Program-made: the position numbers and the translations under genes
The notes under the pieces: generated by a model
What the model saw: only the letters and a program-made list of their open reading frames with translations
Told to the model about the DNA's origin: nothing
Database searches by the model: none
NCBI GenBank assembly: GCA_036704125.1
Contig: DATNQI010000085.1
Location: 1-64,000 of the forward strand
Source of the DNA: Pantanalinema sp.
GTDB lineage: Bacteria; Cyanobacteriota; Sericytochromatia; S15B-MN24; UBA4093
Direction: 5' to 3'
Length of the DNA: 64,000 nucleotides
In this document: positions 10,763 to 33,850 of the stretch, piece by piece
How positions within the stretch are numbered: position 1 is the stretch's first letter
Layout of the letters: each line of letters starts with the position of its first letter

Positions 10763-10771
10763 GGGGGCGAC

Positions 10772-13826: not shown

Positions 13827-13828
13827 CG

Positions 13829-14242: not shown

Positions 14243-14266
14243 GCGGGAAAGCTCCTCCTAAAGGGG

Positions 14267-16051
14267 TTAACCGAGGGCGCTGATCTGGGAGAGGAAGGCC
14301 GATTTCTGACTGTTGATCCGGGCGACGGCCTGCTCCATGGCGGCGAACTGTCGCTCCATGCCTTTACGGGTGAGGGCGAGGCGGCTGGTCACGTTGGTGA
14401 TCTGATCGTCGTAGCCGCGCAGCTGCCGCTGGACCGACTTGTCTCGGGTCTTGAAGACCCCGTCGGTGCTGCCGACCTTGGTGAGGTAGGTCTTGAGCTT
14501 GGCGGCGATCCCCTTGTCGATCTTCTTGGTCGAGTCCAAGGGGTCGGTTTCGGTGAGCTGGAAGAGCATGGCGACCCGGTCGGGGTTGGCCTCCATGGCG
14601 GCCTTGAACTTGGTCTCGTCGAGCTGGAGGTGAATCTTGTCGTCCTTGCTCGTCGCGAGGCCGAGTTCGACCAGGCTCTTGGGGGAGTCGGTGACGCCCG
14701 AGACGTTGGAGGCGAGCATCGAGCGGATCGAGTCGGTGATCTGGCGCAGGTCTCGGTCGAAGGCGTTGGGTTGGCCCTTGGCCGTGGCATCGGTGATGGC
14801 GTCGACCAGCTGGTTGTACTGGTCGACGAAGCTCTTGACCTTGGTGATGGTGGCGCCGGGGTCGGCGGCGGTGGTCACGGTGATCGCGTCGTTGGTGTTT
14901 TCCTGGATCTTGACGGCTGTGAAGGTCAGCCCCGGGATTACGTTGGTGAAGGTGTTGGTCGCGCTGCTGATGAAGTGCGTCGCGTCCGTGTCGCCCGCGG
15001 CCCCGGTGAAGCCGTTGACTCCGACGATACCAATCTGGGCGTTCTGGCCCGCCTTGAGCTCGCCGTTCAGGAGCCCGAGCTTTGACATGAGATCGCCGGT
15101 GGTGTCCTCGACCGAGACGGCGCTGGAGCCCGTCGTGCGCGAGGTCATGACGATCTTATCCTCGAGGGGGTTGTAGGTGGCGGTCACGCCGGCCTTCGAG
15201 GCGTTGATCTTGGTCAGGATGTCGTTGAGCGACTCGGTGGCAGCGTTGTAGCTCAGCTCGACGCCGTTGATCTTGAAAGCGCCCGAGCTCGGCGCGCCGG
15301 CGACGAGGTTGGAGGTGGCGAGCGGAGTGTTGACCTGGAGGGTACTGATGCCACTGGTTGAGCGGATCGTCGCGCCGATCGGGCCATCGTAGGTCACGGT
15401 GCGCAGGTTGGTCACGCTCAGGAAGTTGGAGGTGTCGCTGCCTGCACCCAGGATGATCTTGGTGGCGTTCGCGGCCGTCAGCTCGATCTTGTTGCCAACC
15501 AGCGCGGCCGTCACGTCGCCGCCGGTCTGGGTCGAAATGCCGGCGAAGACATCGCTCAGGCTCTTCGTGGGATCAACGGTGACGGTGTTGGTCTGCGTGC
15601 TGCCATCGGAGTCCCGGGTCCACTGGATGGTGAAGGTTCCCGCCTTGATGGGGGCCGAGCCCTTGATCTCACTTAGTACGGTGCTGGCATCGCTCAGCGC
15701 GGTGCCGAGCCCCGCACCGGAACGCAGCGTCGTGGCGGTCGCCAGTTGCTTGACGTTGATGCGATAGGAGCCTGAGGCGGCATCCGCCCCGGCCTTGGCA
15801 GTGAGGACGTTGGTGTCGCTCGAGGTGGCGGACTTGGCGCGCAGGTTGAGATCCATCGTCAGCTCGGAGGCCGCCCCCTTGAGGGCCAGGATCCGGGTGT
15901 TGATCGTTTGGAAGACCTGGTTCTTGGTGTTGAGCGCCGATTTCTTCTGCTGGAGCAGCCGCAGGGGCTGCTGCTCGATCGACATCAGCTGCTCGACCAG
16001 CGCCTTGGTATCGAGGCCGCTCGCGATGCCTCCGACCGAAAATCCACCCAT
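14267..16051 (-). CDS. fliD: Flagellar filament cap protein FliD
   Basis: At 594 residues this has FliD_N (VGGIASGLDTKALVEQLMSIEQQPL at the start) and FliD_C near the end (LVDAITDATAKG..., with the closing coiled coil). It is the distal filament cap on which flagellin assembles. Heptad-like helices at both termini and a Thr/Ser/Ala-rich middle are as expected. AAGGAGG precedes the ATG. The gene is in the unit driven by the sigma-28-like promoter at 16.6 kb. Confidence 0.95.
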   Translation of the reverse strand: MGGFSVGGIASGLDTKALVEQLMSIEQQPLRLLQQKKSALNTKNQVFQTINTRILALKGAASELTMDLNLRAKSATSSDTNVLTAKAGADAASGSYRINVKQLATATTLRSGAGLGTALSDASTVLSEIKGSAPIKAGTFTIQWTRDSDGSTQTNTVTVDPTKSLSDVFAGISTQTGGDVTAALVGNKIELTAANATKIILGAGSDTSNFLSVTNLRTVTYDGPIGATIRSTSGISTLQVNTPLATSNLVAGAPSSGAFKINGVELSYNAATESLNDILTKINASKAGVTATYNPLEDKIVMTSRTTGSSAVSVEDTTGDLMSKLGLLNGELKAGQNAQIGIVGVNGFTGAAGDTDATHFISSATNTFTNVIPGLTFTAVKIQENTNDAITVTTAADPGATITKVKSFVDQYNQLVDAITDATAKGQPNAFDRDLRQITDSIRSMLASNVSGVTDSPKSLVELGLATSKDDKIHLQLDETKFKAAMEANPDRVAMLFQLTETDPLDSTKKIDKGIAAKLKTYLTKVGSTDGVFKTRDKSVQRQLRGYDDQITNVTSRLALTRKGMERQFAAMEQAVARINSQKSAFLSQISALG

Positions 16052-16174
16052 GATTCACCCTCCTTGGCGGGGTCAAGACCATCCAACAAAACCAGGCATG
16101 TTACGGCCATTGGCCGCCGCTGGCGGCTAGGGCGCCTGCGGCTCAACGCAACAGGAACAGTTTCGTTAGACGCT

Positions 16175-16558
16175 CTAGCGGTTCTCGTCCACCAGCAGGC
16201 CCGAGAGCTGCTTCTGGAACATGGCGACCAGATCCAGGAACTTCTCGGAGGGGATCTCGCGGATCACCTCGCCGGTATCCTGGTTGACCACGGTGACGAT
16301 GGTGCGCTTCGTATCCTCGTGGACCTTGAAGCGCAGGGACTCGTTGAAGGTCGTCATCAGCTGATCGACCTGATCGACGGCCTGGGCGAGCATCTGCTTG
16401 CCCACGGGCTTGGCGTTGTCGCCCTGCTCGGCGTTCTGCTGAGCGGCGAGGGGGATGGCGGCTACCTGAGCGCGATCGCGCTGGGCCTGCTGATCGGCCG
16501 GGAGGTTGCTGAGTTGAGAGACCGCGCCGGCGGCCGCGATGGCTCCTTCTATACGCAT
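16175..16558 (-). CDS. flaG: FlaG family flagellar protein
   Basis: A 127-residue FlaG protein. The C-terminal half has the family pattern LRFKVHEDTKRTIVTVVNQDTGEVIREIPSEKFLDL. FlaG proteins influence filament length in other bacteria. The ATG at 16558 is chosen because AGGAGAGGG precedes it, rather than an in-frame start 48 bp upstream. It is the first gene after the sigma-28-like promoter and precedes fliD by 123 bp, a gap in which nothing else is seen. Confidence 0.9.
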   Translation of the reverse strand: MRIEGAIAAAGAVSQLSNLPADQQAQRDRAQVAAIPLAAQQNAEQGDNAKPVGKQMLAQAVDQVDQLMTTFNESLRFKVHEDTKRTIVTVVNQDTGEVIREIPSEKFLDLVAMFQKQLSGLLVDENR

Positions 16559-16611
16559 AGGGACCCTCTCCTGTGCTCGTGTGGGGCGACGAGACGCGAT
16601 TCCCACTCATG

Positions 16612-16703: not shown

Positions 16704-17537
16704 TTACCGGAGCAGGCCGAGGACGCCCTGCGACGACTGGTTGGCCTGGGAGAGCATCGCGGTCGACGACTGGCTGAGGATCTGGGCCTTCGACATGTTG
16801 ACGACTTCCTTCGCCATGTCGAGGTCCTTGACTCGGCTGTTCGCGGCGTTGAGGTTCTCCGAGGCAACACCCAGGTTGGCGATGGTGTGCTGCAGGCGGT
16901 TGATCAGCGCACCCAGCTTGGAGCGGTTGTTGCTGACGGTGTTGATCGCGGCATCGAGCTTCGAGATCGCGGTCGAGGCGGCAGCCGAGTTGCCGACCGA
17001 GATGTCGGAGCCGTTGCTGACCGACAGCGAAGTCGCGCTCATGTTGCTGAGGGTGAAGCTGATGGTCTGGCCAGCGTTGGCGCCGATCTGGAAGGTCAGG
17101 CCGCCGGCGGACAGGTCACCGTTGATGAGCTTCTTGGTGTTGAACTCGGTCGTGGTCGAGATGCGATCGAGCTCGCTCGAGAGCTGGCTGAGCTCGTCCG
17201 AGATGTTGCTGCGGTCGGCGGTGGTCAGGGTGTCGTTGGCACCCTGGACGGCCAGCTCGCGCATACGCTGCAGGATGGCCTGGGACTCCTGCATCGCGCC
17301 TTCGGCGGTCTGGATGAGCGAGATGCCGTCCTGGGCGTTACGCGAGGCCTGGTCGAGACCACGGGTCTGGCCTTCCATCTTCTGGCTGATGGCGAGGCCG
17401 GCGGCATCGTCCGAAGCGCCGTTGATGCGCAGGCCGGACGACAGGCGCGCCAGGCTCTTGTTGAGCATGGTGTCGTTGTCGGTCAGCACGCGGTGGGCGT
17501 TGAGGGCGGCCACGTTGGTGTTGATACGAAGAGCCAT
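16704..17537 (-). CDS. fliC: Flagellin
   Basis: The 277-residue flagellin has the conserved D0/D1 N-terminus (MALRINTNVAALNAHR, LSSGLRINGASDDAAGLAIS) and C-terminus (LGVASENLNAANSRVKDLDMAKE..., ending GLLR). The middle, about 80 residues, is very short and rich in Ser, Thr and Asn, so outer domains D2-D3 are absent. This Ser/Thr-rich surface is the likely acceptor for the glycan made by the neighbouring genes. AAGGAGG precedes the ATG. It has its own promoter and terminator, as expected for a highly expressed gene. Confidence 0.98.
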   Translation of the reverse strand: MALRINTNVAALNAHRVLTDNDTMLNKSLARLSSGLRINGASDDAAGLAISQKMEGQTRGLDQASRNAQDGISLIQTAEGAMQESQAILQRMRELAVQGANDTLTTADRSNISDELSQLSSELDRISTTTEFNTKKLINGDLSAGGLTFQIGANAGQTISFTLSNMSATSLSVSNGSDISVGNSAAASTAISKLDAAINTVSNNRSKLGALINRLQHTIANLGVASENLNAANSRVKDLDMAKEVVNMSKAQILSQSSTAMLSQANQSSQGVLGLLR

Positions 17538-17650: not shown

Positions 17651-20017
17651 CTACCTTTTTTCGTCCGGAGCACCCGCCCCGAGGGTGAGCAGCTGGCGCC
17701 GCGCGTAGGTGTCCCGCGGATCCAGCTCCGTCGCCTTGGCGAACATCACGCGCGCGTCATCGACGTTGCCGGTCACGCGGCACAGGTCGCCCAGCGCCAC
17801 GTAGGGCGCGGGATCCTGCGGCGAGCCTTCGCGAGCGCGCAGATAAAGGGAAAGGGCTTGCTCGTAGCGTCGGTGGGCGCCGAGGGTCTGCCCGATGCCG
17901 AGGGCGAGGCCGCCGATGCTCGGGCCGAGACGCTCGACCTGCGCCAGCACCTGCTGGATCCACTCCTCGCGCTCGCCGCGCAGGGCCAGGTCGAGGACCG
18001 CGCGCCAGGTACGGACGAGATCGGCATCCTGCGGGCGATTCTCGGGCAGCGCGTGGCCCGCGACGATCTCGCCCAGGCACGCCAGCGCGCGGCTGTCCGC
18101 GTCCTCGGCGAAGCGCGCCCAGATGGGACGGGCGGTCTCGATCCGGCCTGCGAGCAGGTGGACGAGACTCAGGTTCAGGAGCGCCGGGCGCGACTCGGGC
18201 TGCTTGTCGATCGCGGCCTCGAGCGCCGCCTGGGCCTCGCTCAGGTGGCCGAGCTTGAGCAGGGCCTCCGCCTTGGGGATCAGGGCGTCGCTCAGCGAGG
18301 GATCGAGCGCTAGGGCCTTGTCCCATGCTTCGACGCAGTCCGCGTAACGGCCGAACCTGAAGCAGATCGAGGCCATGTTGATCCATGCGCGCAGGTCCTC
18401 GGGGTCGCGCTCGAGGGCGGCGACGAAGTGATCGAGGGCCCGGGCGAAGTCCTGCTCCTGGTAGAGCATGATCCCCATGTTGGTGTGGATCTCGGCGTCC
18501 GGGTTCGGATGACGCGCGATCGCCCTCTCGATGTACTCGAGCCCCTTGCGGTTGTCGCCCAGCTTGGTGTGGCAGACGGCGATCGCGTTGAGGGCCTTGT
18601 GGAGGGCGATGGTCGGGTCGATCCCGCCCGCGTGGATCACGTTGCCCAGTTCGAGGCAGCGCTCGAAGTGGGGGATGGCCTCCTCCCAGCGCTCCTGGTC
18701 CATGTAGGTCAGGCCGATGGTGAAGCGAGTGTCGACGTGGTCACGGAAGAGCTTGGCGCCCTTCTCGAGGTAGCCGAGGGCGCGGTCGAACTCCTTGCGG
18801 CGGCGGCTCAGGTCGCCCAGGTTGTAGTAGACGTTCGGGTAGTAGGGCAGATCGGTCGGCGCCTTGCGCTCCTCGAGCAGCTCGAGGGCGCGCGCGTAGT
18901 TGGTCTCGGCCTCTTCGAGCCGGTTCATGAGCTTGAGGGTCTGACCAAGCTGGAAGTAGGCGTAGGGGTTCTCCGGATCCTGCTCGCGGAACTTCTCGAG
19001 CAGCTCGTAGTTGCGGCGGTTCTTGTCCCGCTCGTCCATGCAGGAGCGCAGGTAGCCGTAGTGGACGATCTTGACCTCGCAGTTGCGGGACTTGAGGCCG
19101 GTGCGGCCGGCCGAGGGTCCCGCTTGCTCGTGGATGATGCCCTCGAAGCGGATGTCGGGCCGATTCTGGAAGACGCGGAAGAGGAGGGCCATCTGGCTAC
19201 CCTCGACCTCGTCCTGGCCGAGGTAGTTCTCGATGACCAGGCTGTAGCCGATGACGTTTTGCTCGCGCAGGAGGGGCTTGAGGTGGTGCTTGGTTGCCTC
19301 GTCCAGGCGCTCGTCGGCGTCCAGCACCAGGATCCAGTCACCGGTCGCCTGCTCGATTCCGGCGTTGCGGGCCGCCGAGAAGTCACCGATCCAGGGGAAG
19401 TGGATCACCTTGGCGCCGAAGCGCTCGGCGATGGCGAGGGTCCCGTCGGTGGAGCCGGTGTCGACGACGATGATCTCGTCGGCCACGCCCTGCACGCTCG
19501 CCAGGCAGCCCTCCAGGTACTTCTCCTCGTTCTTGACGATCATGCAGAGGCTGAGCGTGGGCTCGGCCGGCTTGGTCAGGGCGGTGAGGTACTCCAGGTC
19601 GTCGACGACGACGTCGCCGGTCTCTCGCACCCGGCGCATGGCCTCGACCAGGCTCTGGCGAGCGGTGGGGTGAGAGGGGTTCAGGTCGAGGGCGCGACGG
19701 AAGAAGACCTCCGAGGCCGCATACCACTCGAGCTTGAACATGGTCACACCCAGGGTGTTCACGGCGTCGACCAGGTAGGGATCGAGCGTCAGCGCCTGGC
19801 GAAGGGCCATGACCGCCTTGTCGTACTTGTCTTGCTGCAAGAGGGCCACGCCGAGCTGGGTGAAGAGCGTCGCGTCTTGATCGTCCTGCTCCAGGGCAGC
19901 GAGGAAGTGGGTCGCGGCAGCTTCGTAGTTCCCCTGGTCGAACGCTTGCGCCCCCATCTGGATGAGGTCGTCGCGCTGGGGGGCGATAGCGCCGGTTTTT
20001 ACGATCTTGAGGGCCAC
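17651..20017 (-). CDS. GT2 glycosyltransferase flanked by TPR repeats (GT2-TPR 1)
   Basis: The GTG at 20017 is chosen as start because AAAGGAAA precedes it, giving 788 residues. TPR units occupy about residues 10-120, a GT2 domain about 155-380 (LCMIVKNEEKYLEGCLASVQG, VDTGSTDGT, then DADE as the DxD-type metal motif), and further TPRs run to the C-terminus. The GT2 core resembles SunS-like peptide glycosyltransferases, and TPRs commonly hold protein acceptors. With flagellin 113 bp downstream and a sigma-28-like promoter upstream, direct glycosylation of flagellin is the best guess. The donor sugar is unknown. Confidence 0.85.
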   Translation of the reverse strand: MALKIVKTGAIAPQRDDLIQMGAQAFDQGNYEAAATHFLAALEQDDQDATLFTQLGVALLQQDKYDKAVMALRQALTLDPYLVDAVNTLGVTMFKLEWYAASEVFFRRALDLNPSHPTARQSLVEAMRRVRETGDVVVDDLEYLTALTKPAEPTLSLCMIVKNEEKYLEGCLASVQGVADEIIVVDTGSTDGTLAIAERFGAKVIHFPWIGDFSAARNAGIEQATGDWILVLDADERLDEATKHHLKPLLREQNVIGYSLVIENYLGQDEVEGSQMALLFRVFQNRPDIRFEGIIHEQAGPSAGRTGLKSRNCEVKIVHYGYLRSCMDERDKNRRNYELLEKFREQDPENPYAYFQLGQTLKLMNRLEEAETNYARALELLEERKAPTDLPYYPNVYYNLGDLSRRRKEFDRALGYLEKGAKLFRDHVDTRFTIGLTYMDQERWEEAIPHFERCLELGNVIHAGGIDPTIALHKALNAIAVCHTKLGDNRKGLEYIERAIARHPNPDAEIHTNMGIMLYQEQDFARALDHFVAALERDPEDLRAWINMASICFRFGRYADCVEAWDKALALDPSLSDALIPKAEALLKLGHLSEAQAALEAAIDKQPESRPALLNLSLVHLLAGRIETARPIWARFAEDADSRALACLGEIVAGHALPENRPQDADLVRTWRAVLDLALRGEREEWIQQVLAQVERLGPSIGGLALGIGQTLGAHRRYEQALSLYLRAREGSPQDPAPYVALGDLCRVTGNVDDARVMFAKATELDPRDTYARRQLLTLGAGAPDEKR

Positions 20018-20057
20018 TAAGGTTTCCTTTCTCATCGGAGAACCGCTGCCACGATCC

Positions 20058-20115: not shown

Positions 20116-21768
20116 TCAGCGGGCGAGAGATGCCGCCTTGGCATACATGGTCCGGGCCTCGTCCGGCTCGCCGAGGGCCTGGCATGCGTCGCCAAGCAAG
20201 CGATAGACCACCGGGTCCTCGGGGGTGCGCTGCTGGGCTCTTAGCAGGGCTCCGGCGGCAAGCTCCGCCAGGCCACCGCGCAGGAAGGTCTCACCCAGGG
20301 CGCGATCGAGCGAAGGGAGGGTTTCTCCGAGCGAGTCGAGGCGATCGAGCAGTGCCTGCACCATGGCCGTCCGATCGCTCGTCAGCGCCAGCTCCGCTGC
20401 CGCGCACCAGCTCGCCACCAGGGTCGCTTCGTCGGGCCGCGCGACGGGGAGGGGGCGATCCGTCAGGGCATGAGCGAGGACCAGGAGGGCGCGGCACTCG
20501 GGACTGTTTGGGCAGCGAGCGTAGGCCCCAGCCGCCTCCTCGTAGCGCTCGGCTTGGAGCCACTGCATGGCCAGGTTGAGCCAAGCGCGCGGCTCGCCGG
20601 CATCCCGGGCGATGGCGGCCTCGAAGTGACGGATGGCCTCGGCGTCCTCGCGCTCGTCCGAAAGGAGGATCCCGAGGTTCACGTGCAGGGCCGCGTCGGG
20701 CGCGGGATGGAGCGCCAGGGTTTGCTCCAGATAGGCCCTGGCACGCGGGCGATCGCCCAGCCGGATGTGGCAGTCCGCGAGGGCGCGCAGGGCCTTGTGG
20801 CCTGGCACGTCCGGATCGGTGGGGTAGGCGGGCCGGGCGCCTTGCATGCCCAGGCACCGCTCGAACCAGGGGATGGCCTCGCGGAAGGCCCCCGCGTCGA
20901 AGTGGCAGAACCCCCGGATGTAATAGAGATCGGGGTAGTCGGGATACCGCGCGATCGCCTCGTCCAGCACCGCGGTGGCGCGCTCGAAGCGCAGGAGCCT
21001 CCGGTAGAGGTCGCCGAGGCTGAGGTAGAGGTTGGGGTAGTAAGGGGTTCCCTTCGCGGCCCCCCGGGCCTCGAGCAGGTCGAGGGCGCGCAGGTAGTGC
21101 CGCTCCGCCTCGATGAAGCGATCGAGGAGCTTGAGGCCCTCGGCCAGGTTGAAGTGCGCGAACGGGTCGTCCGGCGCGAGGGTCGCCTGGCGTTCGAGGA
21201 TGCGAAGGTTGCGCTCGCGCTTGCCTCGCTGCGTCACCGCCTCGGCCAGGTACCCCAGGTGACGGATCCGCACGCCCGAAGGGAGGGTCGCGCGGCCGGT
21301 ACGCTTGGCTGAGGGGATGGCCTGCTCGTGGATCAGGCCGTCGAAGCGAATGCCGAGCCCGTTGCGGAAGAGCCTGAAGACAGGGGCATGCTGGCTCATC
21401 CCACCACCGGCCGAGCCGACGAGGTTCTCGCACACCAGGGAGTAGCCCGCCACGTCCTCGGCCCGGAGCAGGCGCCTGAGCTCGGGGATCGAATCGGCCA
21501 GAAGCCGCTCGTCGGCATCCAGCACCAGGATCCAGTCGCTGGTCACCTGCTCGATGCCCGCGTTGCGCGCCGCGGCGAAGTCCCCGATCCAGGGGAAGTG
21601 GCTCACCCTGGCGCCGTGGCGCTCGGCGATGGCGAGGGTCCCGTCGGTGGAGCCGGTGTCCACGATGACGATCTCGTCCACCACCCCCCGTACGCTCGCC
21701 AGGCAATCCTCCAGGTAGGCCTCCTCGTCCCTGACGATCATGCAGAGGGCGAGGGTGGGGGCGCTCAT
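20116..21768 (-). CDS. GT2 glycosyltransferase with C-terminal TPRs (GT2-TPR 2)
   Basis: A 550-residue paralogue of GT2-TPR 1 without the N-terminal TPRs. The GT2 domain spans about residues 6-230 (LCMIVRDEEAYLEDCL, VDTGSTDGT, DADERL), followed by TPR repeats to the end. Both share the run FPWIGDF-AARNAGIEQ. The ATG overlaps the stop of the upstream giant gene as ATGA, so the two are coupled. Residues matching the DxD motif are intact. It is likely another transferase of the flagellar glycan pathway, with acceptor specificity set by the TPRs (inference). Confidence 0.85.
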   Translation of the reverse strand: MSAPTLALCMIVRDEEAYLEDCLASVRGVVDEIVIVDTGSTDGTLAIAERHGARVSHFPWIGDFAAARNAGIEQVTSDWILVLDADERLLADSIPELRRLLRAEDVAGYSLVCENLVGSAGGGMSQHAPVFRLFRNGLGIRFDGLIHEQAIPSAKRTGRATLPSGVRIRHLGYLAEAVTQRGKRERNLRILERQATLAPDDPFAHFNLAEGLKLLDRFIEAERHYLRALDLLEARGAAKGTPYYPNLYLSLGDLYRRLLRFERATAVLDEAIARYPDYPDLYYIRGFCHFDAGAFREAIPWFERCLGMQGARPAYPTDPDVPGHKALRALADCHIRLGDRPRARAYLEQTLALHPAPDAALHVNLGILLSDEREDAEAIRHFEAAIARDAGEPRAWLNLAMQWLQAERYEEAAGAYARCPNSPECRALLVLAHALTDRPLPVARPDEATLVASWCAAAELALTSDRTAMVQALLDRLDSLGETLPSLDRALGETFLRGGLAELAAGALLRAQQRTPEDPVVYRLLGDACQALGEPDEARTMYAKAASLAR

Positions 21769-24700
21769 GCGTCCTTCCTCGCGGGGGCCGGTGGGTCCTG
21801 CCGAATGCCGGCCGGCGAGGCAACCCGCAGGCCCAGCGCGAGGGCGATCGCACGAGCCACCAGGTCCTGCGAGTCCACCCAGACGGTGGCGGCGCGCACG
21901 AGGCCCACCCCAGAGGTCCCCACCTGTTCGAGCAGCAGGACGTCGGGGATCGCCTCGGGGTCCAAGCCTCGCACGCTCAGCCACTCGGCGATCGCCTCCA
22001 GGGTCCCTTCGGCCTTGCCCGGTTTCACCGGCACGAGAAGGGAGCGATGGGGCTCGCTCTCTGCCGCCAGGAAGGCGGCGAGGCCCTCCTTCCAGTCGGT
22101 CGCGCAGAGCCAGCGCTCCTTGGCGCGCGCTTCCAGGAGAGGGGCTTCCTCGTTCCAGTTCAGGGCCTTGAAGCGCTCGCGCGCCACACGCAGCAGCTCC
22201 GCGGTGGGGGCCTCGAAGGCGGGGCGTCCCATGTCGCGCGCCCCCTGCGCGACGTCGGCCGGGCCCAGCACCAGATCGGCTGCGGCCAGGTAGCGGGGCA
22301 GCTCCAGCGGGATGACCGGCGCCTCCAGCAGGGAGATGTCGGGGATGTTCGCCGGGTCGAGGTTCAGGCGCGCGAGCTGCGCCACGACTTCTTCCTGGAC
22401 GGCGGTGCCCTCGGGGCCCGTCAGGACGTGAAGGCACGTTTCGGCGCCCGGGGCGAAGGCCTCCAGGTAGGCCTCGAGGGTTGCGGCGAGCAGCGCCTCG
22501 TCGGGTGCGGCGAGCACCACGTTGAAGGCGGCGCGATCCGGCAGGTCTGTCGGCGCGGCCTCGGGGCTGAACACCGGCTCGGTGTGGATCCGGGGATCGA
22601 AGGGGAGGGCGAGGGCATCCGAGAGGCTGTAGCCGCGCTCCATTGGCTGGGCCTCGGGCAGGAGCCACTTGCGCTTGAACTTGCCCCAGTTCTCCTCCAT
22701 GGCTTGCCGGTAGTCGATTTTCTGGCCCTTGAAGGTGACGCTGCCGAAGTGGTGGATGAAGACGTCGTTGGCCAGGGCGATCCCGAAGCCTGCCACCTGG
22801 GCGCGCAGGCAATAGTCGTCGTCCTCGAAGTTGCCCCGTCCGAAGCGCATGTCGAGACCGCCGAGGCGCTCGATCACCTCGCGGCGGATCAGCATGCAGA
22901 ACCCGATGATGCGCTGGATCGAGAGGACTTCCCCCCCATGGCGTCGGCGCCAGTCGGAGGCGTAGGCCTCGAAGCCCGCCAGGCTGCGCTGATCGTAGCC
23001 GACCCCGTCGACCTGCTGGGGGCCCGTGATGCAGTTGGTCCGGGGCCCGACCAGCCCGATTCCGGGGGCTTCGGCGGCTGCGATCATGCCGTCGAGCCAT
23101 CCCTCGCTGACGACGGTGTCGTTGTTGAGGAGTACCACGTGACGCCCCTGCGCCACGGCGATACCCTGGTTGCAGCCGCCGGCGAAGCCGCGGTTGCGGT
23201 CGTTGAGGAGCAGCTTCACGTTGGGGTGCTGCGCCGCCAGGTGCTGCAGGTAGCCGACGGTTCCGTCGGCCGAGGCGTTGTCGACCACGATCAGCTCGAA
23301 GTCGCGGGTGTGCCGGAAGAGGCTCTCCACGCAGAGGCGGGTCACCTCGAGCTGGTTGTAGGTGAGGACCACGATCGACGCGACGGGTTGTGCCGCTTCG
23401 CCTTCCAGGATGCCGGGGGTGGGGTCAAACCAGGACATGCCCCAGAGGTCGTCGGCCGACGGCACCCGGCCGGGGCCGTAGTGGCGGACCAGCTTCCGGG
23501 CCAGGGCGTCGGTGCTCTCCTGGACCAGGCGTTTGGTGCGATCCGAGGGCTCGGTCTTGAAGCTCACCTGGCCGACGTGGTGCACGAAGGCGTCGGCGGC
23601 GACCACCAGCCGATAACCCGCGTCGCGCAGGCGCCACGAGAGGTCCAGGTCGTCGTTGCCTAGGAAGAGCTCCTCGTCCAGGAGGCCCACCCGGTCCAGC
23701 ACGCGGCGCGGGATCATCATGCAGAAGCCGATGAGGAGCTTGGTCTCGACGGTGCCGTCGAGATTGACCCCGGCCAGGATCATCGCGAGCGTCTCGGGGG
23801 TGATGGCCGAGGGGAGCGCCGGGGGCAGGTAGCGCTGGATCTTCTGCAGGCCCGCGACGTAGTCGGAGGTGGGGCCGACCGCGCCGACGGCGGGGTCCTC
23901 GCAGCGGCTGCGCAGTCGCTCGAGCCAGCCCGGGGTCACGACCGTGTCGGGGTTGAGCAGGATGCTGAACTCGCCCTTGCCGATCCGCAGGCCGGCGTTG
24001 CTGCCGGCCGAAAAGCCGAGGTTCGATGGGCTCAAAACGATCCGCAGGCGCGGGTCGCGCTCGGCCTGGGCCTGGAGCCACCCGGCCGTCCCGTCTTGGG
24101 AGGCGTTGTCCACCACGATCAGCTCGTCGTCGGGGGCCATGGTGCGAAGCGCGTGGGTGAGGCAGTCATCAAGCGTGCGCTGGGAGTTGTAGCTCACGAC
24201 GACGAGCGAGCAGCTCCCGGGGATCACGGGCGTCCCGGCGGCCTTGCTCAGGGCCGCGGGGGTGGGCGGGAGGATGCGCAGGTCGAGGGCCTCGGCGCGG
24301 GCGCGCGACACCGCCGTGCCGTCATCGAGCCAGGCCGTGGCGAGGCGGAAGATGGCCATCTCCGACGTGGCTGGGGCGTCCAGGAGGATCACGTCGGGGA
24401 TGGCCTCGATGTCGTGTCCTTTGGCCTGAAGCCAGGTGGCGATGCGATCTTGGTTCGCCTCGGCGGTGCCGGGCGCCACCCGGAGCAGCAGGGCCACCTC
24501 CTGGTCGGGGTTCACAGCCGCCAGGAAGGCCTCTAGGGGCTGCTGCCAGTCGTCGCCGCACGTTGCGAGCCAGCGCTCGCGGTGCTTCTCGGTCATGGGG
24601 AGCGGGCGCTCCGCCCAGGGGGTGTCCCCGATGGCGCTCACGGCCGCCCGGAGCGTCTCGGGCTCGGGACGGCTCAGGGCCGGTAGGCCCATGTCCCGAG

Positions 24701-26942
24701 CAACGCGTGCGAGGCGAGGCTCCGCCATCACCAGGTCACCCGCGCGCAGGTAGGCGGTCAGGCCCTCGGGGGCGGCGGGAACGTCCAGCAGGCAAATGTC
24801 CGGAATGGCCTCGGGGGAGTGGCCCGAGGTCTCGAGGGTTTGAACTACAGTGGCCTGGACCGCATCAAGGCGAGCGCCCGCCAGGAGGTGAAGGGCCACG
24901 TCGTCGTCCTGCGCGAAGGCCTTCAGGTAGGCTTCGATCATCATCGGCAGCTGTTCTGGGTCGCCCACGGGGACGACGATGTTGAAGCCCCGGCGATCCG
25001 GCAGCTCGATAGTCGCGGCCGGGGGAAGGGCCTGTGCCTGGGTGTGGGTGGCCCGGAAGAGGAGCTGATAGGCGTTGCTCTGTGCGGCCAGGGAGGGGTT
25101 GTCGATCCCGAGGGCGCTCGCCGCTTGCGTGAGGACTTCTCCGGCCAGGGGGTGGGGGACATCGATGGTGCTCGCCTCGAGGACCCTGAGGCCCGACTGG
25201 GCGAGCAGCTGGGCGAAGCTCTGCTGGGTGAAGAAGCGCAGGTGGGTGCGGTCCAGCAGCCCCTCGTCGGCGTAAGTGAACGCGCCGCTCAGGAGCTCGC
25301 CGATGACGGACCAGTGGGCCACGTTCGGCAGGCAGACCAGGACCTCGCCCCCGGGGGCGAGGTGGCGCCGGTGCTTGGCGAGGACCGCACCGGGGTCACG
25401 CAGGTGCTCAAGCACGTCGCCGTAGAGGATGCAATCAAAGTAGCCTTCGGGATACGGAAGGTCGAGGGTCTCCACGTCGCCCTCCACCACGGCGTCGAGA
25501 CGCATCCGGGCTTCAAGGGCGGCCTCGGGGAAGGCCTCGAAGCCAACGACCTCGCGGGTGGGGTTCTGCTCCTTGAGCCACGCGCCCAGGTAGCCGGCCG
25601 CACAGCCGACCTCCAGGATGCGTTTGGCGCCAGGCGGGACCATGGTGGCGAGGCGCTGGTTGATGCGGCCGTAATAGCCGCCCTCGGGAACCCTCGGGGT
25701 CATTCGGGTACCTTCCTCCATCATGCGTTCGATGAACGCCACTGTACGCTCGGTGGCGTGCCCGTCGTTGCGGTAATTGAAGTGTTCGGCGGTCTGCGCG
25801 CGGCATGCTTCGAGGCTGGCACGGAAGCCTTCATCCATGAGGCAGGCGCGCAGGGCCTCGGCGATGGCGTCCGCGGCAGGGGGGCACGTCGCTACGCCCG
25901 GGTAGGGGGCATAGCCCGAGCGGGTGCCGGTTCCAGGTTGCTGCCATGCGATGGACAGGCCGTGCTTCCCGGCCAGGAGAGCCTCGGTCTGAAACGTGGA
26001 ATCGAGACCCACCACCAGGTCGCAGGCACCGAGGAACCAATCGCGAGGTGCGTCGGGAACGGAGATCGCGATCCCGACCTCGTCGGCCAGTCGCTGATGC
26101 CAGGCGGGACCGAAGTCACCGAGGGCTCTGTGGCCGGGGTGAGGGCGCACCACGATCTGGGGCTGCGCGTCCGCAAACAGCAAGACCCCTCGCAGGAACT
26201 CCCGGAAGCCCTCTTCTAGAAGTCCCGGCAGGTCGAAGGTGGTGAGGGTGTGGGGCCAGCTACCCGAGAAGCCCACCACGAGGCGCTCGGGGGCCAGGCC
26301 AAGCCGGGCGCAGGCCGCTGCGCGCTCTGGAAGCGACTGCCGGTAGAGCTCGTCCCATGCCGGGCGCCCCAGCAACGCGATCTGCTGCGGCTGGTTTTTG
26401 GCGTTCAGTAGGAAAGTGTCCCGCGTATAGGCGCCTTCCGCCCCTACCCAGGTGGTCCGGATGAGGTCGTGGAAGTCCCCCAGGGGAAAGGGGGCCAGCG
26501 AGAGGCCGTGGGGCAGGTGAAGCGTCGCGATGGCGTGGCGTTCCGCCTCGGCGACCAGCAGCCTCAGATTGGGGGCGACGTCGTTGTGGACGACGACGGC
26601 GCCCAGGGGATGGTCGCGATGAAGCAGAGCGAAGGCTCGGGCGATGACCTGAAAGTTCAGGGTGTTCTGCAGCACGAGCGGCCCGAGACGATCCGCCACC
26701 TGGGGGGTCCAGTCGCGGCCGGAGAGGTGGAAGGAACGCGCGGGAAAGATGCCCTGGAAGGTCTCGTCCCAGCCGGCGGCCTGGGCCTGGAGTGCCGGTT
26801 GAAGCTGGGTGCGGGCCGCCGCCATGTACTGCGTGAAGGTGGGGGCGCCGAATACGACTACGTGGTGGCCCCGGTCTCGCAGGGCCTGGATGAGACCCTC
26901 GTGTCCGGAGTGAGGGGTAATCAGGATCGCGCGCGAACTCAT
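21765..26942 (-). CDS. Giant modular glycosyltransferase/methyltransferase
   Basis: This protein has 1725 residues. Domains in order: a GT-B-like region (about 1-415, with HLPHG, RPHPGH and a D-S-T-F-Q-T-E-A-L-L segment like CDP-glycerol or nonulosonate transferases); a class I SAM methyltransferase (about 430-640, ILEVGCAAGYLG); an unknown module of about 240 residues (648-890); GT2 domain A (about 908-1150, VVVSYNSQRTLDDC, NPDTVV); GT2 domain B (about 1185-1430, VVLTYNQLEVTRLC, NNDTVV); and a second copy of the unknown module (about 1468-1715). The ATG overlaps the upstream stop as ATGA. It could build most of a linear glycan by itself. The acceptor, a flagellin glycan or a polysaccharide, is not shown. 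Confidence 0.85.
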   Translation of the reverse strand: MSSRAILITPHSGHEGLIQALRDRGHHVVVFGAPTFTQYMAAARTQLQPALQAQAAGWDETFQGIFPARSFHLSGRDWTPQVADRLGPLVLQNTLNFQVIARAFALLHRDHPLGAVVVHNDVAPNLRLLVAEAERHAIATLHLPHGLSLAPFPLGDFHDLIRTTWVGAEGAYTRDTFLLNAKNQPQQIALLGRPAWDELYRQSLPERAAACARLGLAPERLVVGFSGSWPHTLTTFDLPGLLEEGFREFLRGVLLFADAQPQIVVRPHPGHRALGDFGPAWHQRLADEVGIAISVPDAPRDWFLGACDLVVGLDSTFQTEALLAGKHGLSIAWQQPGTGTRSGYAPYPGVATCPPAADAIAEALRACLMDEGFRASLEACRAQTAEHFNYRNDGHATERTVAFIERMMEEGTRMTPRVPEGGYYGRINQRLATMVPPGAKRILEVGCAAGYLGAWLKEQNPTREVVGFEAFPEAALEARMRLDAVVEGDVETLDLPYPEGYFDCILYGDVLEHLRDPGAVLAKHRRHLAPGGEVLVCLPNVAHWSVIGELLSGAFTYADEGLLDRTHLRFFTQQSFAQLLAQSGLRVLEASTIDVPHPLAGEVLTQAASALGIDNPSLAAQSNAYQLLFRATHTQAQALPPAATIELPDRRGFNIVVPVGDPEQLPMMIEAYLKAFAQDDDVALHLLAGARLDAVQATVVQTLETSGHSPEAIPDICLLDVPAAPEGLTAYLRAGDLVMAEPRLARVARDMGLPALSRPEPETLRAAVSAIGDTPWAERPLPMTEKHRERWLATCGDDWQQPLEAFLAAVNPDQEVALLLRVAPGTAEANQDRIATWLQAKGHDIEAIPDVILLDAPATSEMAIFRLATAWLDDGTAVSRARAEALDLRILPPTPAALSKAAGTPVIPGSCSLVVVSYNSQRTLDDCLTHALRTMAPDDELIVVDNASQDGTAGWLQAQAERDPRLRIVLSPSNLGFSAGSNAGLRIGKGEFSILLNPDTVVTPGWLERLRSRCEDPAVGAVGPTSDYVAGLQKIQRYLPPALPSAITPETLAMILAGVNLDGTVETKLLIGFCMMIPRRVLDRVGLLDEELFLGNDDLDLSWRLRDAGYRLVVAADAFVHHVGQVSFKTEPSDRTKRLVQESTDALARKLVRHYGPGRVPSADDLWGMSWFDPTPGILEGEAAQPVASIVVLTYNQLEVTRLCVESLFRHTRDFELIVVDNASADGTVGYLQHLAAQHPNVKLLLNDRNRGFAGGCNQGIAVAQGRHVVLLNNDTVVSEGWLDGMIAAAEAPGIGLVGPRTNCITGPQQVDGVGYDQRSLAGFEAYASDWRRRHGGEVLSIQRIIGFCMLIRREVIERLGGLDMRFGRGNFEDDDYCLRAQVAGFGIALANDVFIHHFGSVTFKGQKIDYRQAMEENWGKFKRKWLLPEAQPMERGYSLSDALALPFDPRIHTEPVFSPEAAPTDLPDRAAFNVVLAAPDEALLAATLEAYLEAFAPGAETCLHVLTGPEGTAVQEEVVAQLARLNLDPANIPDISLLEAPVIPLELPRYLAAADLVLGPADVAQGARDMGRPAFEAPTAELLRVARERFKALNWNEEAPLLEARAKERWLCATDWKEGLAAFLAAESEPHRSLLVPVKPGKAEGTLEAIAEWLSVRGLDPEAIPDVLLLEQVGTSGVGLVRAATVWVDSQDLVARAIALALGLRVASPAGIRQDPPAPARKDA

Positions 26943-27784: not shown

Positions 27785-28795
27785 TTGCTTAAAGGTAGCT
27801 CGATTCTGGTGACGGGGGGGACCGGGTCCTTCGGAAAGCGATTTATTCGAACGATCCTGGAGCGGTATCCGGATATCACCCGCCTGGTCGTTTTTTCGCG
27901 TGACGAGCTCAAGCAGTTCGAAATGGCGCAAGATTTCTCCGCCGCTCGCTTTCCCCAGATCCGCTACTTCATCGGAGACGTTCGTGACAAGGACCGCCTC
28001 CTGCGCGCCATGGAGGGGATCGACGTCGTGGTCCATGCCGCAGCCCTGAAGCAGGTCCCTGCGGCCGAGTACAACCCTTTCGAGTGCATCAAGACCAACG
28101 TGCTCGGGGCGCAGAACGTGATCGAGGCCGCCTTCGATGCCGGGGTCAAGCGGGTGGTCGCCCTCAGCACCGACAAGGCGGCCGGCCCCATCAACCTGTA
28201 CGGGGCTACCAAGCTCTGCTCCGACAAGCTCTTCGTCGCCGCCAACAACATGAGGGGCAAGCGGGACATCCGGCTCTCGGTCGTGCGCTACGGCAACGTC
28301 ATGGGTAGCCGCGGCAGCGTCATCCCCTTCTTCCTGCAGAAGCGTCATGAGGGGGGGCTGCCGATCACCGATTCGCGAATGACTCGGTTCAATATCACCC
28401 TCGACGAGGGGGTCCAGATGGTTCTGGACGCGCTCGATCGCATGTGGGGCGGCGAGATCTTTGTACCCAAGATCCCGAGCTACCGCGTCGTCGACGTGGC
28501 CGAGGCGATCGCCCCGAGTGCCAGGCGCGAGATCGTGGGCATTCGACCGGGTGAGAAGCTCCACGAGGAGATGATCACCGAGACCGACGCCATCTCCACC
28601 CTGGAGTGCAAGGACTACTTCGTGATGCTGCCCTCCATGCGGCTGTGGGACGTCGAGGAGTTCAAGCGAGCCTTCGACGCGCGTCCCTGCCCGGATGGCT
28701 TCAAGTACAACAGCGGCACCAACACCGACTGGCTGAGCGTCGAGCAGATTCGCGCCCTGATCAAGCAGCACGTCGACCCGGCCTTTTCGGTCTAG
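27785..28795 (+). CDS. pseB: UDP-GlcNAc 4,6-dehydratase (inverting), PseB
   Basis: An extended SDR of 336 residues that converts UDP-GlcNAc to UDP-2-acetamido-2,6-dideoxy-L-arabino-hexos-4-ulose, the first step to pseudaminic acid. The NAD(P) motif GGTGSFGK is near residues 10-18, STDKAA follows and the active-site YxxxK is Y139-K143. The TTG at 27785 is chosen because the protein then starts MLKGSSILVTGG, matching known PseB proteins, with GAGGCGG upstream. The reading frame is open further upstream but without family similarity. It is the first gene of the rightward Pse operon. Confidence 0.93.
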   Translation: MLKGSSILVTGGTGSFGKRFIRTILERYPDITRLVVFSRDELKQFEMAQDFSAARFPQIRYFIGDVRDKDRLLRAMEGIDVVVHAAALKQVPAAEYNPFECIKTNVLGAQNVIEAAFDAGVKRVVALSTDKAAGPINLYGATKLCSDKLFVAANNMRGKRDIRLSVVRYGNVMGSRGSVIPFFLQKRHEGGLPITDSRMTRFNITLDEGVQMVLDALDRMWGGEIFVPKIPSYRVVDVAEAIAPSARREIVGIRPGEKLHEEMITETDAISTLECKDYFVMLPSMRLWDVEEFKRAFDARPCPDGFKYNSGTNTDWLSVEQIRALIKQHVDPAFSV

Positions 28796-28806
28796 AGGAG
28801 GGCCTC

Positions 28807-29970
28807 ATGTCCGCATCCATTCCCTATGGCCGCCAGTGGATCTCCGAGCAGGACATCGCGGCGGTCGTCGAGGCCTTGCGATCCGACTGGCTCACCCAGG
28901 GCCCCCTGGTTGCGCGCTTCGAGGAAGCCCTCGCCGAGAAGGTCGGCGCCCGCTATGCGGTTGCCGTCGCCAACGGCACCGCGGCGCTGCATCTGGCCGC
29001 CCTTGCCGCGGGCTTCGGCGCGGGGGACGAGGTCATCACCACCCCCAACACCTTCGTCGCCTCGGCCAACTGCGTCCTCTACGCCGGCGCGCGCCCCGTG
29101 CTCGCCGACATCGATCCCCAGACCTACTGCATCGACCCTGTTGCGGTCAGAGCACGCCTGACCCCCGCCACCAGGGGCCTGATTCCCGTTCATTTCGCGG
29201 GCCAGCCTTGCGACATGGCCGCTCTCGGTGCGATCGCCCGGGAGCACGGCCTGACCGTCATCGAGGATGCGGCCCATGCCATCGGGGCCACCTACCAGGT
29301 GGACGGCGTGACGTATCGGGTGGGATCCTGCGCGCACAGCGCCATGACCATCTTCTCCTTCCACCCGGTCAAGCACGTGACCACCGGTGAGGGCGGAGCG
29401 ATCACCACCAACGACCCCGCACTGTACCAGAAGCTCGTCCAGCTCAGGACCCACGGCATCACGCGTAACCCCGAGCGCCTGACCCGCAACGAGGGCCCCT
29501 GGTACTACGAGATGCAGGAGCTGGGCTTCAACTACCGCCTCACCGACTTCCAGTGCGCCCTGGGCCTGCAGCAGCTCAAGCGCCTGGATGACTTCGTCGC
29601 GCGCCGCCGGGCGATCGCCGCTGCCTACGACCAGGCCTTCGGGGCGGAGTCCGAGCTGATCGTTCCCTTCGAGCGGCCCGATGCCTCCTCGTCCTATCAC
29701 CTGTACGTCGTGCAGTTCCGGACCGCGGACCGCCGTAAGGCCTTCGAGCGCTTGCGCGAGCTGGGGCTCGGGGTGAACGTCCACTACATCCCGGTCCACC
29801 TACAGCCGTATTACGCGCGCGAGCTGGGATGCCGCCCGGGGGATTACCCGCAGGCCGAGGCCTATTACGGGCGCGCCGTCTCGCTTCCGATGTATCCCGG
29901 GATGAGCGACGAGGAGGTCGCGCGCGTGATCGCACTGGTGAGGCAGACGGTACGGGAGCTTGCGGCATGA
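28807..29970 (+). CDS. pseC: UDP-4-keto-sugar aminotransferase, PseC
   Basis: A 387-residue PLP enzyme of the DegT/DnrJ/EryC1 family. It transfers an amino group to C4 of the PseB product, giving UDP-4-amino-4,6-dideoxy-AltNAc. The start (IPYGRQWISEQDIAAV) is typical of PseC; the PLP lysine is K189 in FHPVKHVTTGEGG. AGAGGAGG precedes the ATG. The next gene overlaps its stop as ATGA. In the standard pathway its product goes to the acetyltransferase PseH, which is not present here. Confidence 0.94.
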   Translation: MSASIPYGRQWISEQDIAAVVEALRSDWLTQGPLVARFEEALAEKVGARYAVAVANGTAALHLAALAAGFGAGDEVITTPNTFVASANCVLYAGARPVLADIDPQTYCIDPVAVRARLTPATRGLIPVHFAGQPCDMAALGAIAREHGLTVIEDAAHAIGATYQVDGVTYRVGSCAHSAMTIFSFHPVKHVTTGEGGAITTNDPALYQKLVQLRTHGITRNPERLTRNEGPWYYEMQELGFNYRLTDFQCALGLQQLKRLDDFVARRRAIAAAYDQAFGAESELIVPFERPDASSSYHLYVVQFRTADRRKAFERLRELGLGVNVHYIPVHLQPYYARELGCRPGDYPQAEAYYGRAVSLPMYPGMSDEEVARVIALVRQTVRELAA

Positions 29971-30719
29971 GGACGGTTGCGATCATCCAGGCCCGAATGG
30001 GGTCTTCCCGGTTGCCGGGCAAGATTCTGATGCCGCTCGGGGATCGGACCGTCCTGGAGCACGTGGTGGCGCGAACCCGGGCATGCCCTTTGATCGACGA
30101 GGTGGTCGTCGCGACGACGCAAGGGCCGCAAGACGATGTCCTTCTCCCGGTGCTCGAGCGCCTGGGCGTGCCGTGTTTTCGCGGAAGCGAGGGCGACGTC
30201 CTGGAGCGTTACTATCAGGCGGCACTGCAGCAGCGTGCCGACGTGGTGGTCCGGGTCACCTCCGATTGTCCGTTGCTCGATCCTCAAGTGCTGACGCGCT
30301 TGCTGGAGGCCTTCTTCGTCGCACGTGCGGGCGAGACCCCATGCGACTACCTGAGCAACACGCTCACCCGAACCTTTCCGCGCGGCCTGGACGCCGAGGT
30401 CTTCAGCTTCGAGGCCCTCGCGCAGGCGCATGCCGAGGCGCGCGAGCCATACGAGCGCGAGCACGTGACGCCCTTCCTCTACTTCCATCCGGATCGCTTC
30501 GCCCTCAACGACTTCAGGGATGACGCCGACGCCTCGGGTCACCGCTGGACCCTGGACACGATCGACGACTACCGGCTGATCGAGGCGCTTTACGCCGCGC
30601 TCTACCGACCGAACGAGCTCTTCTCGACCCGGGAGGCGCTTTCCTATCTGGATCGCCACCCACAGCTGGTTCAGCTCAACGCCCACGTCGAGCAGAAGAA
30701 GATCCAGGAGGGCGCATGA
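29967..30719 (+). CDS. pseF: SpsF/PseF-type cytidylyltransferase (CMP-nonulosonate synthetase)
   Basis: The 250-residue protein starts IIQARMGSSRLPGKILMPLG, the nucleotide-binding signature of the SpsF/NeuA-like cytidylyltransferases, with DCPLLDP as a second motif. It is expected to activate the nonulosonic acid with CTP to CMP-sugar for transfer. It is closer to the SpsF form of the Bacillus spore-coat cluster than to Campylobacter PseF, by my reading. The gene overlaps pseC and the pseG fusion by 4 bp each, showing tight coupling. Confidence 0.88.
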   Translation: MRTVAIIQARMGSSRLPGKILMPLGDRTVLEHVVARTRACPLIDEVVVATTQGPQDDVLLPVLERLGVPCFRGSEGDVLERYYQAALQQRADVVVRVTSDCPLLDPQVLTRLLEAFFVARAGETPCDYLSNTLTRTFPRGLDAEVFSFEALAQAHAEAREPYEREHVTPFLYFHPDRFALNDFRDDADASGHRWTLDTIDDYRLIEALYAALYRPNELFSTREALSYLDRHPQLVQLNAHVEQKKIQEGA

Positions 30720-32467
30720 GGGTCGTGTTCCGGGCCGATGCCTCACAGGAGATCGGCAGCGGGCACGTGGCGCGCTGCCTGGTCATCGCCCGTCTGCTGC
30801 GCGCGCGCGGCGCTCAGGTCTCGTTCCTCTGCCGGGAGCTGCAAGGCCACCTTTGCGACTTCGTCGAGCGGCAGGGCTTCGAGGTGCATCGCCTCCCGCG
30901 GCCCGAGGCGCCTTTGGCACCCGGTTTCGCGCGCCTCGCGCATGCCGCCTGGCTGGGGGTGAGCTGGGAAGAGGATGCGGCGCAAGCGGCGGCCTACCTG
31001 AGCGCGCTCCCGGCTCCTCCCGATTGGCTCGTGGTGGACCACTACGCCCTGGACGCACGCTGGGAAGAGGCCCTGCGCCCCCATTTCAACCGCCTGATGG
31101 TCATCGACGACCTGGCGGATCGCCCTCACGCGTGCGACCTCCTGCTGGACCAGAACCTTCACCCGGGCTTTGAGCACCGCTACGAGGCCCTGGTGCCGGC
31201 GGGATGCCGCCTTTTGCTGGGATCGCGCTTCGCGCTGTTGCGGCCCGAGTTCGCCTGGGCGCGCCGGGATCTGCGCCTGCGGAGCGGCGCGCTATCGCGT
31301 CTTCTCGTCTTCTATGGCGGGAGCGATCCGACCAACGAGACCCTCAAGGCCCTCCGGGCCCTGCGCTCGCTCGCGGATCCCGCGTGGCGCATCGACGTGG
31401 TGCTTGGAGCGGCTAACCCTCATCGAGAGGCGATCGAGGCATTCTGCCGCGACTGGCCGCAGGTGGCCCTGCATACGCAGGTGGACCGGATGGCCGAGTT
31501 GATGGCTTCGGCGGACCTTGCGCTGGGAGCGGGGGGCGTGACGACCTGGGAGCGCGCTGCCCTGGGCTTGCCTTGCGTGGCCTCGGCCATCGCCTACAAC
31601 CAGGAGTCGATCCTGAGGGGGGCGGCAGAGGCCGGTATCCTCTTCAACCTCGGGAAGGTCGAGGACGTCACCGAAGAGGCGATCGCCGCGGCGATCGAGA
31701 ACCTGGCGGCGGATCCCGCTGCCCTGCAGGCGATGGGGGAGGCCGGCCGCGCGCGGGTCGACGAGTGGGGGGCCTTCCGGGTTCTGGCTGAACTGGGTGC
31801 CGCCTCGTATCGCATCACCGTGGTCTCGGATGCGTCCAGCTGGATCAACGCCCACGTGCCGGAGTTCGTCCGGATGCTGGAGGCCCAGGGTCACCACGTG
31901 AGCTGGGTGCACGAGGTCGCCCGGATCCCGGCGGGGGATTTCGTCTTCTACTGGGGATGCGGCCAGATCGTCTCGGCCGAGGTTTTGGCGCGCAATCGCC
32001 ACAACCTGGTGATCCACGAGAGCGCCCTGCCTCACGGCAAGGGCTGGTCGCCCCTGACCTGGCAGATCCTCGAGGGCCGCGCAGAGGTCCCCGTGACCCT
32101 GTTCGAGGCGATGCCCGCGGTCGACAGCGGCCCGATCTATCTCCGAGGGACCATGCGTTTTCGGGGGACCGAGCTGGTGGACGAGCTGCGCGCGATCCAG
32201 GCCCAGGAAACCCTGCGTCTCTCTCTTGCTTTCATCGAGGGTTACCCCGAGGTGGTGCACCAGGCGAGCCCTCAGCTGGGCGACGCCACCTATTATCCAC
32301 GGCGCACCCGGGAGGACAGCCGCCTCGATCCCGAGCGTTCGCTCGCGGATCAGATGAACCTGTTGCGGGTGGTCGACAATGAGCGCTACCCCGCTTTCTT
32401 CGACTGGGGCGGGGAGCGCTACGTGCTTGCCGTCCACAAGGCGGATGCCCCGCAGAAAGGCGCTTGA
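30716..32467 (+). CDS. pseG: PseG hydrolase fused to a formyltransferase domain
   Basis: A 583-residue fusion. Residues 1-360 are PseG, the UDP-sugar hydrolase that frees the 2,4-diamido-altrose: FRADASQEIGSGHVARC with H17, at the position of the catalytic His of Campylobacter PseG, then DDLADRP and GAGGVTTWERAALGLP. Residues 365-583 are a 10-formyl-THF-type formyltransferase domain with H434 in IHESALPHGKGWSPLTW and D470 in VDSGPIY, matching the catalytic His and Asp of Fmt/ArnA enzymes; the partner Asn of the usual NxH motif is Val. The fusion suggests N-formylation of the sugar at this stage (inference). Confidence 0.88.
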   Translation: MRVVFRADASQEIGSGHVARCLVIARLLRARGAQVSFLCRELQGHLCDFVERQGFEVHRLPRPEAPLAPGFARLAHAAWLGVSWEEDAAQAAAYLSALPAPPDWLVVDHYALDARWEEALRPHFNRLMVIDDLADRPHACDLLLDQNLHPGFEHRYEALVPAGCRLLLGSRFALLRPEFAWARRDLRLRSGALSRLLVFYGGSDPTNETLKALRALRSLADPAWRIDVVLGAANPHREAIEAFCRDWPQVALHTQVDRMAELMASADLALGAGGVTTWERAALGLPCVASAIAYNQESILRGAAEAGILFNLGKVEDVTEEAIAAAIENLAADPAALQAMGEAGRARVDEWGAFRVLAELGAASYRITVVSDASSWINAHVPEFVRMLEAQGHHVSWVHEVARIPAGDFVFYWGCGQIVSAEVLARNRHNLVIHESALPHGKGWSPLTWQILEGRAEVPVTLFEAMPAVDSGPIYLRGTMRFRGTELVDELRAIQAQETLRLSLAFIEGYPEVVHQASPQLGDATYYPRRTREDSRLDPERSLADQMNLLRVVDNERYPAFFDWGGERYVLAVHKADAPQKGA

Positions 32468-32469
32468 CC

Positions 32470-33839: not shown

Positions 33840-33850
33840 GAAGGAAGAAC

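Follow-up and report, generated by a model that had tools for sequence, protein, structure and literature searches.

The question raised by this locus is what a single protein of 1725 residues, built around two copies of a module that belongs to no named family, might be doing next to a set of flagellar genes. The window that we analyzed is a stretch of 64,000 nucleotides and is part of a 3.5-Mb draft genome of Pantanalinema sp. Two TPR-GT2 genes follow the giant gene downstream on its own strand, and after them come the genes for flagellin, FlaG, FliD, FliS and a FliT-like protein; a pseudaminic-acid operon is read divergently upstream of the giant gene (Table 1). The giant shares an ATGA with a neighbor at each end: its start codon overlaps the stop of an upstream ORF, and its own stop codon the ATG of the neighboring TPR-GT2 gene. 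Translational coupling at both ends is therefore likely. The upstream ORF (206 aa; 26939-27559, minus strand) is of unassigned family.

With regard to its domains, the giant reads as [GT-B-MT-tail-tail]-[GT2-GT2-tail-tail], where MT is a methyltransferase, a tail is one half of the repeated module and the GT-B part is only GT-B-like. The methyltransferase matches PDB entry 3cc8 (E 7e-47) in addition to its Pfam family, and both GT2 domains were found by Pfam, so that the original prediction of a GT-B/methyltransferase/double-GT2 chain holds for these three units. Its GT-B part is a different matter: the N-terminal ~415 aa had no significant Pfam match (Capsule_synth was very weak at E 0.16, and Glyphos_transf and Glyco_transf_4 were weak too) and nothing at E 1 or below among PDB sequences. 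The label comes from motifs read in the sequence (HLPHG, GRPxWD, RPHPGH and GLDST) and from weak matches to families of GT-B fold only; the domain is probably a GT-B of the capsule-synthesis/glycerophosphotransferase type. An orthologue of it in locus L032 is 53% identical. When the full protein was compared with genome contigs just one distant GT2 match was obtained, in Leptolyngbya, and a partial counterpart arranged as [GT-B-MT-tail-tail]-GT2 is encoded in genome G009.

Module 1 (residues ~640-905) and module 2 (residues ~1458-1725) are 43% identical (110/254 aa, E 1e-56), and their alignment score of 471 compares with 45 +/- 8 in shuffles (z about 52). The copies start with FNIVV and FNVVL, contain ARDMGLPA and ARDMGRPA, respectively, and carry IPD(I/V)xLL four times, at residues 713, 848, 1533 and 1665 of the giant; the two GT2 domains lie between them. 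A profile of the first halves matches the second half of module 1 (E 1.8e-8), and first and second halves align by hhalign at E 1.1e-9. Thus, the homologous duplication flanking the GT2 domains, the motifs FN(I/V)V, DMG-PA and IPD(I/V)xLL, and the two internal half-repeats per module were all correctly anticipated in the original prediction. Judging from these alignments the inner repeat is real: each module consists of two homologous halves of about 120 aa, the tails, and all four copies form one family. In a tree, tails 1a and 2a form one group and tails 1b and 2b another, and each group includes the matching half from genome G009. Therefore, the a-b tandem pair arose first and was later duplicated as a pair.

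Table 1. Positions of the giant protein, its parts, its neighbors in the window, and stand-alone tail genes in related genomes (positions with an L prefix refer to those loci).
Feature	Position	Strand	Basis or remark
Giant protein, 1725 aa	26942..21765	minus	Intact ORF; ATG at 26942, stop at 21765
N-terminal domain, residues 1-415	25698..26942	minus	Probably GT-B, capsule-synthesis/glycerophosphotransferase type
Methyltransferase domain, residues 430-600	25143..25655	minus	Pfam Methyltransf_23, E 9e-21 (430-589); SAM motif LEVGCAAG at 443
Tail 1a (module 1, first half)	24630..25001	minus	Repeat alignment and profiles; AlphaFold
Tail 1b (module 1, second half)	24228..24590	minus	Repeat alignment and profiles
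GT2 domain 1	23523..24227	minus	Pfam Glyco_tranf_2_3 and Glycos_transf_2, residues 908-1137; NPDT at 997, GNDDLDLSW at 1095
GT2 domain 2	22728..23393	minus	Pfam Glycos_transf_2, residues 1189-1360; NNDT at 1273, EDDDYCLR at 1373
Tail 2a (module 2, first half)	22170..22541	minus	Repeat alignment and profiles
Tail 2b (module 2, second half)	21768..22127	minus	Repeat alignment and profiles
TPR-GT2 protein	20116..21768	minus	ATGA overlap with giant; GT2/TPR by sequence reading and similarity to 17651-20035
TPR-GT2 protein	17651..20035	minus	Pfam GT2 and TPR
Flagellin	16704..17537	minus	Flagellin_N and Flagellin_C
FlaG, FliD, FliS, FliT-like	13458..16606	minus	Pfam; FliT below its cut-off
GT9-like (heptosyltransferase-like) protein	12087..13436	minus	Pfam Glyco_transf_9; divergent C-terminal tail at 12090-12404
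Pseudaminic-acid operon, divergent upstream of giant	27785..34903	+	PseB, PseC, PseF-like, PseG-formyltransferase, formyltransferase-like, LmbE-type deacetylase, PseI
PseG-formyltransferase fusion	30716-32467	+	
Second formyltransferase-like ORF	32464-33144	+	
LmbE-type deacetylase	33135-33839	+	
Stand-alone single-tail gene	L034:4478-4891	+	Adjoins tailed TPR-GT gene; begins within the end of a GT4 gene
Stand-alone single-tail gene	L046:4832-5419	-	Adjoins tailed TPR-GT gene

As had been predicted, the module fell in no known family: no named family covered it at cut-off in Pfam and NCBIfam searches of the giant or in Pfam searches of the tails, and the best PDB sequences found with the tail profile were short, chance-like stretches. 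These, glutamyl-tRNA synthetase among them (best single stretch, i-Evalue 0.61), were rejected. The module also had no match among 72,556 plasmids. One of 27 tails, in a relative, did match PF13692 directly (E 2e-4), and an iterated profile united the tails with true GT4 C-terminal domains. To avoid circularity we rebuilt the profile from the 27 tails without catalytic GT4 domains (profile A1). By hhalign, A1 matched five true GT4 C-domains at 98.0% (E 3e-13, a pairwise value that is not database-calibrated), and the controls (the methyltransferase, GT2, PseB, PseC, PseF, PseG, PseI, flagellin, FliD, FliS and reversed GT4) all scored <=3.8%. Within the class, catalytic GT4 C-domains were detected at E 1e-6 to 1e-11. 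A1 was also run over 292 genomes of the phylum, whose members outside this class look like photosynthetic cyanobacteria. Strong matches were confined to the class; the best of the weaker ones outside it were to GT4 enzymes (residues 177-281) and to WecB-type UDP-GlcNAc 2-epimerases (residues ~200-308), both named by sequence reading, and both fall on the C-terminal GT-B domain.

Structure prediction of the module region, a check suggested along with the original prediction, was informative at the level of the single tail. AlphaFold, given 44 tails, modeled tail 1a with a pLDDT of 94 and a pTM of 0.87 as a Rossmann-like domain of alternating beta and alpha elements (order E-H-E-H-E-H-E-H). An earlier run on the whole module with 3 sequences was poor (pLDDT 56) and we drew no conclusions from it. 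For the tail model, Foldseek returned many Rossmann proteins from the PDB and nothing below E 1e-3; GT-B enzymes, which were among the top matches, reached TM about 0.53-0.56, and other Rossmann proteins scored similarly. Structure alone does not single out GT-B; the sequence profiles do. With the GT4 C-domain match, its clean controls and the Rossmann-like model taken together, it is very probable that each half is by descent a degenerate GT-B C-terminal (GT4-like) Rossmann domain. The suggestion that the module is a degenerate GT-B fold is thus well borne out, with the refinement that the unit is each half and not the whole module.

What has degenerated is the donor site. The arginine and lysine of the RKG loop are present in 0/44 tails as compared to 5/5 of the GT4 set, and in the E-x7-E loop, also intact in 5/5 of that set, the first glutamate remains in 2/44 tails and the second in 3/44. 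All four copies of the window, and nearly all of the 44 tails, have lost the RKG loop that follows strand 1, the lysine of strand 2 and E-x7-E. The tails furthermore lack a complete two-domain GT-B fold, being single C-domain units of ~120 aa that mostly occur once per relative. They are mutually divergent (mean column identity 29%), with conservation at hydrophobic positions and in a DPExIPD motif. On these grounds the tail looks like a pseudo-GT domain that is non-catalytic. It follows that at most four units of the giant can be catalytic, fewer than the 'five or more' originally counted.

Tails are not peculiar to the giant. In our sample of the class (Sericytochromatia of the Cyanobacteriota, 18 genomes in the searched set) they are present in 15/18 genomes, usually at the C terminus of a GT protein, where they make up the final ~120 residues, in the architectures GT4-tail, GT4-GT4-tail, GT2-GT4-GT4-tail, GT4-GT2-GT2-tail-GT2-tail, GT2-tail and GT-TPR-tail. 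Set beside these, the giant resembles a fusion of two tailed blocks into a single chain. In the window itself, the tail of the GT9-like protein was recognized by hhalign at 91.7% (residues 355-444), and at 96% when the orthologue from genome G001 was added. The search for stand-alone copies that accompanied the original prediction was also productive: separate tail genes occur in G006 and G008 (about 171 and 138 aa), that of G008 starting within the end of a GT4 gene. These two stand-alone copies differ at 28/26/66 sites in codon positions 1/2/3, which shows constraint at the protein level. In genome G010, three consecutive ORFs (L045:388-5254, + strand) are each terminated by a tail, the first being a GT2 by Pfam, in what appears to be a tandem expansion. 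As for the company that the tails keep, tailed GTs are encoded at a distance of up to about 10 kb from flagellin in four genomes (G001, G005, G007 and G010) and adjoin pse-type genes in three (G009, G004 and G012). Two of the three tail-less genomes (G015 and G017) have no flagellin either, both being members of one family and so not independent, and in G003 flagellin is present and the tail absent. Many tailed GTs are on contigs without a flagellin gene (the contigs are short), and the tail may therefore serve surface glycans generally.

The upstream operon says something about the sugar that might be used. PseB, PseC, PseG and PseI passed NCBIfam equivalog cut-offs, and the PseF-like protein is a cytidylyltransferase (Pfam CTP_transf_3). 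We noticed no PseH acetyltransferase in the operon (27785-34903); this, together with the formyltransferases, hints at an N-formyl variant of pseudaminic acid. Flagellin is present in 15/18 genomes of the class and PseI scores above cut-off in 8/18. PF01973 (Maf) is the usual family of flagellin nonulosonate transferases. It is absent from this genome and 16 others, that is from 17/18 genomes of the class, and is not among the Pfam matches of the giant. Thus, if flagellin carries pseudaminic acid, another GT must act. The window also contains two adjoining genes in tandem for Na+-dependent nucleoside transporters (9542-11980, + strand).

Given the adjoining flagellin, FlaG, FliD and FliS genes, the pse operon and the ATGA coupling, a role of the giant in flagellin glycosylation is likely. 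We favor, with moderate confidence, the more specific scenario in which the giant is a cytoplasmic multi-domain enzyme of flagellin O-glycosylation whose non-catalytic pseudo-GT tails serve in docking or in acceptor binding. The catalytic domains would build a short methylated glycan that sits on, or extends, a pseudaminic-acid-type sugar of flagellin, drawing on CMP-pseudaminic-type and other nucleotide sugars in the cytoplasm. The tails would transfer no sugar; their part would be to hold the acceptor, be it flagellin or the glycan on it, or to dock several GTs together. That acceptor binding is their main task is a tentative proposal, made by analogy to GtfB (PMC6973325) and to the accessory parts of Maf-1 (a TPR tail) and Maf-2 (the partner protein GlfM; PMC13317340), and we slightly favor it over enzyme assembly.

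Assembly of GTs as the main task of the tails is possible and rather doubtful. The analogy here is TarS, a GT2 that can be trimerised by non-catalytic domains arranged in tandem at its C terminus (PMC5156392). In its full form this alternative makes the tails oligomerisation or scaffold domains that touch one another and not flagellin, their homotypic contacts joining the giant and the GT9-tail protein with further tailed GTs of the locus in one complex. It would account for one type of tail being found on several classes of GT, the GT9-like protein of the same window included, and for stand-alone tail genes adjoining GT genes. It sits less well with the profile search, in which neither TPR-GT2 protein of the locus had a tail match, and with the divergence of the tails, which is atypical of a conserved homotypic interface. 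We regard such a scaffold as possible and rather unlikely to be the main explanation.

The original prediction took the giant for an assembly-line glycan polymerase. There is precedent for this in WsaE, builder and capper of an S-layer glycan, which the giant resembles, with its two GT2 domains and its methyltransferase on a single chain (PMC2943079). The giant, however, lies in a region of flagellin operon genes that includes a pse operon, its stop codon overlaps the neighboring TPR-GT2 gene, and no polymerase, flippase or ABC exporter was seen among the locus genes scanned (part of the ORFs of the window). The locus points to flagellin O-glycosylation, and an assembly line for capsule or exopolysaccharide is improbable. 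It is more improbable still that the tails are relics, that is duplicated GT fragments kept as functionless linkers. Their high divergence and lost catalytic residues could be read in this way, but tails are kept in most genomes of the class, their predicted fold is well packed, their hydrophobic positions and DPExIPD motif are conserved, and the stand-alone copies are under protein-level constraint. Hardly credible, finally, is the idea that the tails are active glycosyltransferase or nucleotide-sugar-binding domains of an unusual kind, a tandem pair forming a mini GT-B enzyme: GT-B enzymes are indeed made of two Rossmann domains and the tails here are paired, but both halves are of the C-terminal type, the donor-binding residues are gone in nearly all tails, and most relatives have a single tail after a complete GT, so that pairing is not needed.

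A domain unnamed in the libraries searched is now placed, as the half of a GT that would have turned into a non-catalytic accessory. Under the favored scenario of a flagellin-modifying enzyme with pseudo-GT tails, it is also linked to the glycosylation of flagella in a class that has received little study and is without the usual Maf. If the tails recognize flagellin, protein glycosylation would be aimed in a new manner, by parts derived from GTs, and this could be tested through single expressed modules. A broader speculation, which we consider unlikely as a whole and worth stating, is that throughout this flagellated, non-photosynthetic class of Cyanobacteriota flagellin receives a glycan of the pseudaminic-acid type with no Maf involved. 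In that case GT4 C-domains, duplicated and decayed again and again, would have given rise to pseudo-GT-B tails, and these would have taken over acceptor recognition, serving a wide range of unrelated catalytic GT blocks as a modular address tag.

It is instructive to compare the giant and its tails with systems already described. The closest relative of the tail is the GT4/GT-B C-terminal domain (PF00534, PF13692), homologous to the tail profile by hhalign (98%); the tails differ in being units of about 120 aa, alone or in tandem, without an N-terminal partner domain and with the donor-binding residues lost. A 'FPDW' tail of cyanobacteria, a C-terminal domain of ~123 aa that follows GT4 in large MT-GT4-TPR/FkbM proteins and had no Pfam model in four proteins scanned, occurs in 27/146 photosynthetic genomes (L105-L124). 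It is alike in size and in its place after GT4, and a colinear weak profile match was obtained via the GT9 tail (best 35%, E 4e-4), but direct comparison of the profiles gave only 1-10% and homology is not established. An additional 'FPDW' match in G020 (L103), weak and inside an unrelated ORF, was dismissed as false.

In Maf systems the acceptor-binding part is either C-terminal, as with the TPR tail of Maf-1, or separate, as with Maf-2 and its partner GlfM (PMC13317340); the biological step expected of the giant is the same, but PF01973 is absent here and the giant's tail is GT-B-derived and not TPR. In the O-GlcNAc transferase pair GtfA-GtfB, GtfB binds the acceptor protein and is described as a chaperone, not a transferase (PMC6973325). 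GtfB has a DUF1975 domain and is a protein of its own, whereas the tails are short C-domain remnants within the same chain. WsaE of Geobacillus is a trifunctional soluble protein of S-layer glycan synthesis that combines, like the giant, a methyltransferase with two GT domains in one chain (PMC2943079), from which the giant differs in its flagellar locus, its four pseudo-GT tails and a further, GT-B-like domain at the N terminus. In the type B GT2 of C. difficile, GT and methyltransferase are likewise joined in one protein that is encoded in the flagellin operon and modifies flagellin (PMC5207246); no tails are described there, and its sugars are GlcNAc, rhamnose and a sulfonated peptidyl-amido sugar. 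GT-methyltransferase proteins of surface-glycan and flagellin systems are thus already known, and the giant, which is not a Maf, would work in the manner of these.
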